Below are positions 1-5,226 of a stretch of DNA of 46,934 nt, in pieces. The notes beneath the pieces are model-generated. The model saw only the letters and a program-made list of their open reading frames with translations. It made no database searches and was not told the DNA's origin. The stretch spans positions 1-46,934 of IMG/VR virus record IMGVR_UViG_3300022539_000142; one strand, written 5' to 3'. Each line of letters opens with the position of its first letter. Positions within the stretch are counted from its first letter, which is position 1. The position numbers and the translations under genes are program-made. This DNA is from a virus.

Positions 1-2332
1 TAAAGGTTTCTCCGTCAACTTGTAAGGGATGCAACATACATTTCCTCATAATCTTTATAGTCTCATCTGCTTTGTCCTCATCAACGATAACATAGATAGC
101 ATCAAGTAAGTTAATGAAGATGTCTATCTTGTCCCCAAATTCTCTGTAGAGTTTTACAAGGGACATATTAAGTAGGTCTCCGACAGTTGACTGAGGCTTG
201 TAGGAATAAGCGCTCCTGAAAAGATCTCCTTCCTCTCCAGGCTTCGGCCATCGACCAAGAAATCTGTGCCTCCTGCCAAGGAGGTTTGTCAGATTCCTTG
301 TCTGTCGGAGCTCATTCTGTATCCTCATATGCCAGAGTTGTAAGTGTGGGTCTGTCTCCTTATCAATCCGTATGAGTTCCTTAGCTTCTTTCATGCTGAC
401 GTTTAGCTTGTTTGCAAGCACCCCAGGGCCAGCACCATAGTTTCGTGCATGTCGTAGCTTCTTACCTATATCCCTTTGAGTTTCAGTCACCTCTCCCACA
501 GGAACTCTGAACATAGTAGAGGCTTTCATTATATGAACGTCCCAGTTCATTACTTTTCTTTTCTTCTTAGAAGCTCCAAAGGAATTCTTGAACATCTTTA
601 TTAGCTTATGGTCATGGGATAGGTACGCAGTGACAACAGCCTCTGCTTGTACATAGTCAGCTGAAACATACCTCTGTCCTTTTCCTGCAACATAGAATAT
701 CCTTACCTCCTCAGGGATATTCATGAGATTTCCTGGGCCATAAGGCAGAATGATACTACCAGAAGAGCTCCACCTACCAAAGGACTTCTGGTGCTCCTCT
801 TCATCGTAGAGCCCTGTCTTCTTCTTTTGCCTTTGCATGGTAGCTCCGGTAATGTTGTAGCTGGTATGGACACGACTCTCAGGAGATATGGTGAAGTTTA
901 TGAAGCTGGATAACTTATGGCTAAGCTTCTTAACTTTGACAATCTTCTCAAGGGTTGTATTGTTGCTTATCCTTATTAGTTTACGGAAGGCCTCTTCATC
1001 AGTAGTTACTTTCCTTATATCAGAAGCTTTCTTGCGCCTCTTGAATTGAATGGGCAAGCTCATGTCTACATAAAGAAGTTGCGCCATTTGCTTGGGTGAG
1101 TTGAAGTTGATCTTCCTTCCTATCTCGGTATCCAGCTCAGCCTCAAGAGTGGAAAGTTCCTCACTTGTCTCCTTCTCTGTCTTTGCTCGCAGCTCATTAT
1201 CCACGTAAATCCCCTGGAGTTGGAGCATCATGGAAGGCTCAACTTGGGACATCTCGAAGTCAAAGGTGTGTCTTGCCCTCTGCTTATCAAGCTCTGCTTC
1301 CATTACAAGCATGATCCCATAGGTATTGGCTGCATCACAGCAGTTATAATAGGTAGGCATTTCATGCTGGAGTTGTTTCCACCTTGGTACGTTCAGGCAT
1401 ATAGAAGCTTGGAAGCCTAAGTTTCTTGGGACTTCAGGCCAGCAGACATGGGTTGCTACCATAGTATCAAATATGATGTTCTTGCAGTGGATTCCATTGT
1501 TATGCCAGAGAACTGCTGCATCGTAGGAAGCGTTCTGCATGATTAGTTCTTTGGTAGTCAGTACCTCTCCAAGGAGTTGCCATGTCTGCAACTCAGCATC
1601 CAGACTATACCTTGGTTTTCTCTGCTGAAGGAACTCGAATGACACAGCGTGCTTTGGACTATCAGCAATCCCCATAATGTCTATGTGTGAGCCTGGACTG
1701 CTTGTTTCAATATCTACAGATATTGGCCCTTTGTGTTCTTCAAGGAGCCAGTTAAGGTATTCCAGGAACCTGCCCTTCGAAACGCCAGCCTGCAGAACTC
1801 TATCGTCTACTGGAAGATCTGGAGTCCTAGAGTTTGTAAGGGCTTTCCTTAAATCCATTATAGCTTGCCAATGGAGTGGCCAGTCATAGCCTATTGCTTG
1901 AGGATGCCAGGTGGGTAGAACTTTCTGCCCTGGCACAAGGGTTGACTCACAGATGTAGCCACGAGCTGCTTGAATACTGGTTAGTCCTGTAAGGGCATAA
2001 AGGGCATGTCTGCCAAGGGGTACGACAAGGTTGGGTCTGTACTTCTCTATTTCCTTCTTAAGGAACTCAACGAAAGCCTTCATCATTGGCTTGTAGATGA
2101 GCTGCTTGGAATCTTCATAGTAAAACTCTATCTTATTCCCTGGTGGCCTTTCTCTAGCTACATTAGCAATCATACATTCCTGGCGGACGATGTTTGCTTG
2201 AGCAAGTAACTGGTTGAGGGTTCCACCAGCTCTGCCAATGAAAGGTCTGCCTGACTTGTCTTCTTCCTCACCAGGAGCTTCACCGACAAACATTATGTTT
2301 GCTGTTACAGGGCCCTCTGTTTTGACAAAAAT
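1..2332 (-). CDS. DNA polymerase I family (PolA) with N-terminal uracil-DNA glycosylase domain and 3'-5' exonuclease; C-terminus cut by window edge
   Basis: This is the replicative DNA polymerase of the phage. Residues about 1-170 form a family-4-type UDG domain, with a GEAPGEEEDKSGRPF motif and a WHPQA motif carrying the catalytic-type His. I see no four-cysteine Fe-S set in it. An exonuclease follows, with VDIET near residue 205, an N-x3-D element and YNCCD. The polymerase has motif A SADYVQAEA near 558, motif B R-x3-K-x3-H-x3-YG near 620, and motif C IVDED near 750. The position that is Phe or Tyr in most family members is His, and the usual HDE is VDE. The frame opens after a TGA at 2395-2393 and has no ATG, GTG or TTG before an ATG at 2293, which lies inside the first UDG beta strand. 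An ATT at 2332 sits 8 nt after GGGAGG, so I place the start there. SPO1-type phages are known to have a UDG-PolA fusion. The last few dozen residues lie beyond base 1. Confidence 0.9.
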   Translation of the reverse strand, partial: MFVKTEGPVTANIMFVGEAPGEEEDKSGRPFIGRAGGTLNQLLAQANIVRQECMIANVARERPPGNKIEFYYEDSKQLIYKPMMKAFVEFLKKEIEKYRPNLVVPLGRHALYALTGLTSIQAARGYICESTLVPGQKVLPTWHPQAIGYDWPLHWQAIMDLRKALTNSRTPDLPVDDRVLQAGVSKGRFLEYLNWLLEEHKGPISVDIETSSPGSHIDIMGIADSPKHAVSFEFLQQRKPRYSLDAELQTWQLLGEVLTTKELIMQNASYDAAVLWHNNGIHCKNIIFDTMVATHVCWPEVPRNLGFQASICLNVPRWKQLQHEMPTYYNCCDAANTYGIMLVMEAELDKQRARHTFDFEMSQVEPSMMLQLQGIYVDNELRAKTEKETSEELSTLEAELDTEIGRKINFNSPKQMAQLLYVDMSLPIQFKRRKKASDIRKVTTDEEAFRKLIRISNNTTLEKIVKVKKLSHKLSSFINFTISPESRVHTSYNITGATMQRQKKKTGLYDEEEHQKSFGRWSSSGSIILPYGPGNLMNIPEEVRIFYVAGKGQRYVSADYVQAEAVVTAYLSHDHKLIKMFKNSFGASKKKRKVMNWDVHIMKASTMFRVPVGEVTETQRDIGKKLRHARNYGAGPGVLANKLNVSMKEAKELIRIDKETDPHLQLWHMRIQNELRQTRNLTNLLGRRHRFLGRWPKPGEEGDLFRSAYSYKPQSTVGDLLNMSLVKLYREFGDKIDIFINLLDAIYVIVDEDKADETIKIMRKCMLHPLQVDGETF

Positions 2333-2334
2333 GG

Positions 2335-2655
2335 CTAAATCCTCCCTGTGTCCTCTAATAATGCTCTTAGCAAATAGAGATAGTTTATAGAGTCAGTTAT
2401 CTTCTCAATCCAAGCTTCTCGAGTGGCAGCTTTTCCTCTGTCTATATCTCTCAAGTAGTCATATAGTGCAACTATTTGTTTGGCCATCATACCTGCGAGG
2501 GCTTGTTCAGGAAGCCTGCTTTCTAGTGCTGCTGCCTTTTTAAAGTTGTGAAGTCTGTCTCCCTCTCTAGAGTAAGTGCCTTTGCGGTTTTCCAGGAGTG
2601 CATCACCAAAGGCTCGCTGTTCCTCAATCACCTTTAGAAATCTATCTGGTGTCAT
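2335..2655 (-). CDS. MazG-like / nucleotide-modification-associated all-alpha phage protein
   Basis: This 106-residue protein has the DRLxNF ... DSINYLYLLRALLED pattern seen in small all-alpha phage proteins related to MazG or DUF1599-type nucleotide-metabolism proteins. The assignment comes from pattern recognition only. The start follows a GGGAGG ribosome site 7 nt upstream. Its stop codon overlaps the spacer between the ribosome site and the proposed ATT start of the polymerase gene, so the two are probably translationally linked. A role in nucleotide pools next to the polymerase is plausible but inferred. Confidence 0.7.
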   Translation of the reverse strand: MTPDRFLKVIEEQRAFGDALLENRKGTYSREGDRLHNFKKAAALESRLPEQALAGMMAKQIVALYDYLRDIDRGKAATREAWIEKITDSINYLYLLRALLEDTGRI

Positions 2656-3909: not shown

Positions 3910-5226
3910 CTATTCATCTTCCTTCTCCATGTATTCCTTAATTCTCTTGACTGCTGTAGAGTACGCTTCTAATGAGTTATCAACTCCTTCACAGATCAGC
4001 TTCATTTCCAACCCAGCCTCGATATGAGCACCACAGCCCATAAAGGGATCATATAGCTGCATACCTGGGAGGGATACCCTTTCCAGAAGATCTATCAATA
4101 ATGGAACAGGCTTCTCATAGGTATGAAGCTTGCTGTCTGGTGGAACAGGAGGACATTCCTTCCAGTCAGGCATCCCTTCCTTGATTATTTTACTATCGTC
4201 TTTGCGAATATACATAAGCATTTCATAGCAACTGGATGGCCAAGCGCTTGGAACATTGCACTGGCCTACTTCCCGCTTAATCCAGATCAGGGGCTTCACA
4301 TGGACTCGCCAGCCAGCTTCCATGAAAAGGTGCCTCAGACTCCAGAAGTGTTCAGGAGCTACGAAGACGTATCCGTGAGCATTTGAAGTGGTAAACCTGA
4401 AAGATTCGTGGGCAAGTGCAACGTACAAACTTCTGGCCTTCTCACCATCATCGCTGATCTTGAAGCCTGATGAGGTCAATGCTCCACCTGTTCTACCTCC
4501 AAGTGCTATGGCCAATTCATCTGCGTTGATTCCATATAAGGGATCTGTGAGCAATATGTCCTTGCAATTATTAGGCAAAGCCATCATATGCTCTACTGCA
4601 TCTATATGATGAAGTTTGAAAAGATCTTCTCCTTTAGAGACGGCCTTCTCAAACTCCTTCAATCCTTTCATAGCTGCATCCAGCTTCTGCAATCCTTTTG
4701 CAGCCTTTTTAATTTCAGACTTCTTCTTTGCAGATTTGAGCTCCGGAAAAGCTTCAATCATTGCAGCCATATCAAGCTCGCTTATGACAGTACCTTTTGT
4801 CTTTCCCAGAACCTTTGCAGTATCCTCCAGGGTGTGTCCACCCTCTCTACCGGAGACAGCTGTACCATGTATTTCTTGCATAAGGATGTGGAATTCTTTA
4901 ATAGCAATAGCATTCTCAGCAGGAGTCAATTCTTTCCTCTTGATGTTCTCCTCAATCTCCCATAGCCTCATCATCCTGGGGTCAGCAATGTCTTCATAAA
5001 TAACTTTGACCTTTATACCCTCGAGGATACAAGCAGCTAGTCTCCTTCCACCTACTATCAATTCGTTGTTTCTGTTAATTACAATAGGCTGAATTTGGCC
5101 AGTATCTCTAAGGGATTTACCAAGCTCTTGGAGATCACCAAGGTCTTGCCTGTATCTTTCCAGGCCTTCTTTGACTGTGATCTTAAGTGGGTCGAGGTAG
5201 AAGAGGCCAGTATTTTGTTTTGTCAT
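3910..5226 (-). CDS. ParB-like nuclease domain fused to a beta-order DNA methyltransferase
   Basis: This 438-residue protein has a ParB/Srx-like N-terminal domain (about 10-95, with GGRRLAA at 59-65) and an HTH-like middle (about 130-160). The C-terminal half is an S-adenosylmethionine-dependent DNA methylase. The catalytic motif reads DPLY at 228-231 instead of DPPY. The SAM-binding motif DPFMGCGA is at 393-400. With motif IV before motif I, this is the beta-class order. ParB-methylase fusions are common in phages, where they modify phage DNA against host restriction or may act in regulation. The start follows an AGGAG site by 8 nt and lies within the end of the upstream gene. The Pro-to-Leu change may affect activity. 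Confidence 0.88.
   Translation of the reverse strand: MTKQNTGLFYLDPLKITVKEGLERYRQDLGDLQELGKSLRDTGQIQPIVINRNNELIVGGRRLAACILEGIKVKVIYEDIADPRMMRLWEIEENIKRKELTPAENAIAIKEFHILMQEIHGTAVSGREGGHTLEDTAKVLGKTKGTVISELDMAAMIEAFPELKSAKKKSEIKKAAKGLQKLDAAMKGLKEFEKAVSKGEDLFKLHHIDAVEHMMALPNNCKDILLTDPLYGINADELAIALGGRTGGALTSSGFKISDDGEKARSLYVALAHESFRFTTSNAHGYVFVAPEHFWSLRHLFMEAGWRVHVKPLIWIKREVGQCNVPSAWPSSCYEMLMYIRKDDSKIIKEGMPDWKECPPVPPDSKLHTYEKPVPLLIDLLERVSLPGMQLYDPFMGCGAHIEAGLEMKLICEGVDNSLEAYSTAVKRIKEYMEKEDE

Follow-up and report, generated by a model that had tools for sequence, protein, structure and literature searches.

Translation of the viral gene that fuses UDG, 3'-5' exonuclease, and family A DNA polymerase domains most likely starts at an AUU codon, at positions 2332–2330 of the minus strand (a probability of about 0.68). 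The gene lies at one end of an IMG/VR virus record, IMGVR_UViG_3300022539_000142, whose 46,934 bases form the window analyzed here. The position of the start at ATT 2332 is strongly supported by comparison with related sequences, whereas the use of AUU as such is what we infer. The features concerned are collected in Table 1.

Table 1. Features around the start of the polymerase fusion gene, in window positions.
Feature	Positions	Strand	Basis or remark
UDG–3'-5' exonuclease–family A DNA polymerase fusion gene	2..2332	-	777 codons counted from ATT; cut by the contig end
UDG domain	1880..2317	-	PF03167, 91 bits (curated cut-off 24.3); fold of type-4 UDGs 1l9g, 1vk2, 1ui0
ATG, first of the frame; internal Met, residue 14, second in first UDG strand	2291..2293	-	no Shine-Dalgarno match; predicted model
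Codons for FVKTEGPVTANI, from ATT to first ATG	2294..2329	-	coding and conserved in the family; profile and predicted model
Predicted hairpin ACAGGG (2349–2344)/CCCUGU (2312–2307), over most of the Shine-Dalgarno and the AUU	2307..2349	-	RNAfold; weak
ATT, proposed AUU start codon of the fusion gene	2330..2332	-	aligned with relatives' starts; no canonical start upstream in frame
106-aa gene, phrog_6802 (E 3.3e-23)	2335..2655	-	TAG at 2337–2335, 2 nt before ATT; last codons contain the Shine-Dalgarno
GGGAGG, Shine-Dalgarno	2341..2346	-	8 nt (2340–2333) before ATT; sequence and relatives
TGA, in-frame stop bounding the open frame	2393..2395	-	sequence read directly

The fusion gene is recognized by the Pfam domains UDG (PF03167), DNA_pol_A_exo1 (PF01612), and DNA_pol_A (PF00476) and by phrog_17; with PF00476 at 148.4 bits against a cut-off of 34.3, it belongs to the family A DNA polymerases. 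Its open frame on the minus strand runs for 797 codons from the TGA to the contig end at window positions 1–2, where the C-terminus of the polymerase is lost. After the TGA the frame reads CTC TAT AAA CTA TCT CTA TTT GCT AAG AGC ATT ATT AGA GGA CAC AGG GAG GAT TTA GCC up to the ATT, and then TTT GTC AAA ACA GAG GGC CCT GTA ACA GCA AAC ATA up to the ATG at 2293–2291, which is followed by TTT GTC GGT. A sequence-only reading of this DNA had stated that ATG, GTG, and TTG are absent from the frame between the TGA and the ATG at 2293, and that the ATT stands 8 nt after GGGAGG; direct reading of the minus strand bore out every coordinate. Almost every other gene called in the window combines a canonical start with a Shine-Dalgarno match of 4–8 bases, and all three types of stop codon are in use.

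Homologues were gathered from phage records and, by alignment-guided scans, from IMG/VR. Codons were numbered from the Met at 2293 as 0, which places the ATT at −13. The near-relative set comprises 36 sequences at 43–65% identity, with L091 the closest (65%). At column −13, 26 of the 36 carry ATG and one carries GTG, so that a canonical codon stands exactly in the place of the window's ATT in 27/36; in the nine others, an ATG is found one or two codons away, at −12, −14, or −15. L091 carries AAAAGGAGGAAATTGATG at the ATT position and reads AAAAGGAGGAAATTG-ATG-TTTATC around its start, and MFVKTEGP in L095 aligns with IFVKTEGP in the window. Microcystis phage Mel-JY34 (L002) and MW202489 (L003) have ATG at −13 too. 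The alignment of the UDG N-terminus with homologues, which had been proposed as a check, thus gives a uniform answer, with all 36 starts 12–15 codons before the position of Met 2293, where the relatives have an internal Met or Phe.

The 12 residues encoded after the ATT (FVKTEGPVTANI) score 32.6 bits on a profile of the relatives, which themselves score 18.3–34.0; the best of the 53,572 other stop-free 12-mers in the window reaches 12.9 bits on the same profile. Upstream of −13 (2332), the polymerase frame has no similarity to the relatives. The similarity ends at the ATT, which argues that the start does not lie further upstream. Together, the start columns and the profile indicate that translation begins at or directly beside ATT 2332 and that ATG 2293 is internal. 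The codons flanking the ATT are TTA, GCC, and TTT, which leaves the ATT as the sole near-cognate of AUN type at this place.

In a predicted model of the protein (mean pLDDT 85.7), the first UDG strand spans residues 13–17 counted from the ATT, and the 12 residues that precede it are well ordered (pLDDT about 93–95). The sequence-only reading had put the ATG at 2293 in the middle of this strand and had credited the ATT with restoring it. The Met does fall inside the strand, as its second rather than its middle residue; most of the strand is kept without the ATT, and what the longer form regains is the ordered segment and the first strand residue.

The ribosome-binding region is in keeping with a start at the ATT. 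At the corresponding position the near relatives carry AAGGAG, GGAGG, or AGGAGG, and in the window GGAGG is found at a spacing of 8 nt. The stop of the upstream gene lies no more than 15 nt from the polymerase start in 26 of 35 near relatives, and the distance in L093, L232, L102, and L106 is 2 nt, the same as that between the TAG and the ATT of the window. This shared gap places the start at 2332 independently of the protein alignment and fits coupled or assisted initiation. The Shine-Dalgarno may be partly paired in a hairpin predicted by RNAfold. Its energy is −10.7 kcal/mol in the window, compared with −3.7 to −8.9 in five relatives; as it is no better than in shuffled sequences (z −0.08), sequestration of the site was set aside and the hairpin is kept only as a weak feature. 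Searches of the window for RNA families and tRNAs returned nothing, so no phage tRNA or known leader element is present. Nor does any other in-frame ATH or CTG codon with a Shine-Dalgarno give evidence for AUU use elsewhere in this phage; those with the longest matches mostly stand directly before an ATG or in open reading frames opposite called genes.

In the proposed mechanism, GGGAGG would position the ribosome at the AUU, where the initiator fMet-tRNA would pair at two of three bases. Ribosomes terminating on the 106-aa gene would probably assist initiation. The product would have a full-length UDG N-terminus, fMet-FVKTEGPVTANIMFVGEAPG, and its predicted N-terminal peptide is fMet-FVKTEGPVTANIMFVGEAPGEEEDK, as opposed to MFVGEAPG from a start at 2293. 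An AUN start behind a Shine-Dalgarno is read less efficiently by the initiator tRNA and is restrained by IF3; in this phage, polymerase expression would then be low and would depend on IF3 and on the 106-aa gene. In E. coli, excess IF3 inhibits reinitiation less when a Shine-Dalgarno is present than when it is absent (PMC2268962). The family as a whole would not share low expression from AUU, all close relatives having ATG or GTG. It is conceivable, if rather doubtful, that the AUU start puts the polymerase dose under the control of host IF3 and of the ribosomes ending the preceding gene, as a brake gained recently by one base change.

The survey of starts covered 194 distinct mapped homologues, window included, with records very near the window left out. 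Among them, the AUU at the polymerase gene is private to the window genome (1/194). Only the window and L035 (IMGVR_UViG_3300044842_000302) have no ATG, GTG, or TTG between −45 and −3; apart from L035, all relatives examined start with ATG, GTG, or TTG. In L035, the codon at −15, which is ATG in its relatives and lies 45 nt before the Met of the UDG motif IMIVGE, is AAG. This AAG is an implausible start and may reflect an error or mutation, or else a longer form. Close relatives with ATT or ATG may exist. The exact DNA pattern around the polymerase start had no second copy in viral contigs, a single-protein scan for close relatives confirmed none, and a pattern search for Shine-Dalgarno–ATH–xVKTxGP starts matched 19 contigs, all of which lacked a UDG motif. 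Genome-contig matches mostly covered the UDG part of the query alone and were left aside.

The AUU start, for which its alignment with 27/36 starts, the GGAGG, and the 2-nt gap speak, has to be weighed against readings in which nothing unusual is used at this position. The real population may have ATG, with the ATT an assembly base error, or the assembled genome may have lost its start by mutation. Such an account is unlikely, though it carries real weight. A single substitution, T to G at 2330 on the minus strand, would restore ATG, and the codon is seen once among the homologues surveyed; the apparent start loss in L035 and the nature of the record, an IMG/VR contig with the gene running off its end, point the same way. 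Against it, per-base consensus errors are rare in assemblies, and inserting or deleting one base in the T run near the ATT never yields a canonical start. All 777 codons of the frame remain open, and the window's other large genes appear intact. Moreover, the private changes P80Y, Q537M, and Q741N take two base changes each and so are not single base errors. General gene decay was also considered as a cause of start loss and rejected, because the four private changes of the window at otherwise invariant columns are no excess over those of L091 (four), L096 (four), or L242 (eight).

Initiation at ATG 2293, with a UDG 13 residues shorter, is the choice that a gene caller would make, being the earliest canonical start in the frame, and MW202489.1 is annotated in this way. 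It is very improbable, since it would discard 12 conserved, ordered residues with the first residue of the strand and would set the window apart from 36/36 near relatives; the absence of a ribosome site, noted earlier, is borne out by the lack of any Shine-Dalgarno match. Even L003 has ATG at −13: its annotated start is the internal Met (locus 2501) despite the ATG 13 codons upstream (locus 2462), and the public start is likely misannotated. Fusion of the polymerase to the 106-aa protein by a −1 frameshift, which the sequence-only reading rightly ranked below the AUU start, is less probable again. The polymerase frame, which is −1 relative to the 106-aa reading frame, does overlap it by 58 nt, and the overlap contains the tetramers A_AAC (2386–2383) and U_UUG (2374–2371), but it holds no X_XXZ_ZZN heptamer. 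Both tetramers are poor, so a proper slippery site is lacking; in E. coli, U_UUG shifts at just 1.8–3.6 times the background level, and the motifs that shift do not include A_AAC (PMC4066793). In addition, the polymerase-frame sequence upstream of the ATT is not conserved, and no homologue examined fuses the two proteins, homologues of the 106-aa protein being separate genes, several of them far from the polymerase. The slimmest chance belongs to a different upstream non-canonical codon, such as the ATT ATT at 2362–2357, which is in frame; against it stand the lack of a good Shine-Dalgarno before it and of any similarity to relatives upstream of 2332.

Non-canonical AUU starts are already known as a kind, and an instance in a phage polymerase would be new if confirmed; none was found published in the limited open-access literature consulted. 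In E. coli, AUU is the sole start codon of infC, which encodes IF3, and of pcnB, and IF3 discriminates against it, according to the passages citing these cases in PMC13009471 and PMC5472188. Both are genes of cells, and their autoregulation or limitation has been measured, whereas the window gene is a phage polymerase whose putative AUU start is not conserved. Further cases are the S. aureus genes cvfC1 (AUU), ccpN (AUA), and citZ (AUA), whose starts, in poor medium, produce about 10% of what AUG does (PMC13009471). Like the start proposed for the window, these starts are driven by a Shine-Dalgarno, and the AUA of citZ, too, is confined to a single lineage; conservation of AUU among orthologues is accordingly a supportive rather than a defining feature. 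In contrast to the window, the S. aureus cases are backed by retapamulin profiling (cvfC1 was detected by Ribo-Ret) and reporters, and the starts of cvfC1 and ccpN are conserved between species and have an extended Shine-Dalgarno. The window site is good, yet it is not of the extended type reported at other non-canonical starts and may be partly paired; like the absence of AUU from all relatives, this somewhat weakens the AUU reading. Streptomyces sigR, which starts at GTC and is repressed by IF3 (PMC5472188), likewise has a strong ribosome-binding site and a non-canonical start overlooked by gene callers; it differs in its codon, in the proof of IF3 repression, and in conservation across the genus.

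Few AUU starts have good support, and gene-calling programs are built in a way that overlooks them; an annotated window polymerase would lack 13 conserved residues. If real, the start would let the influence of IF3 and of reinitiation on phage polymerase dosage be tested in a natural setting, and comparison of start-codon columns across IMG/VR relatives can reveal further cases of the AUU type.

An N-terminal UDG on a family A polymerase is also found in phrog_17, in 9qhs (the phiLo polymerase, which at 1142 aa is longer than that of the window), and in Mel-JY34. The window domain belongs to the UDG superfamily, as PF03167 scores above its cut-off and Foldseek matches 1l9g at E 2e-15; with TIGR00758 at 101.8 bits, below the curated cut-off of 125.3, it falls outside family 4 UDG proper. 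In family 4 UDG, four cysteines bind the Fe-S cluster. The window UDG has none of the four: the N-terminal Cys pair has no space, RERPP stands in place of KCRPP, and the next Cys aligns with Phe. The motifs GEAPGEEED and HP are kept. In the polymerase domain, NLMNIP stands for NLQNIP and NLLDA for QLHDA, which correspond to Q537M, Q741N, and H743L counted from the ATT (724–722, 112–110, and 106–104, minus strand); these columns do not vary among the other 36 near relatives, and two of the three changes need two base changes. The small phrog_6802 protein is mobile, being encoded directly before the polymerase in the window and several kilobases after it in L099 (9527–9832) and L101. A ParB-like/DNA methyltransferase gene (window 3910–5226, minus strand) lies upstream of the polymerase, as it does in most relatives, where small variable genes usually separate the two.
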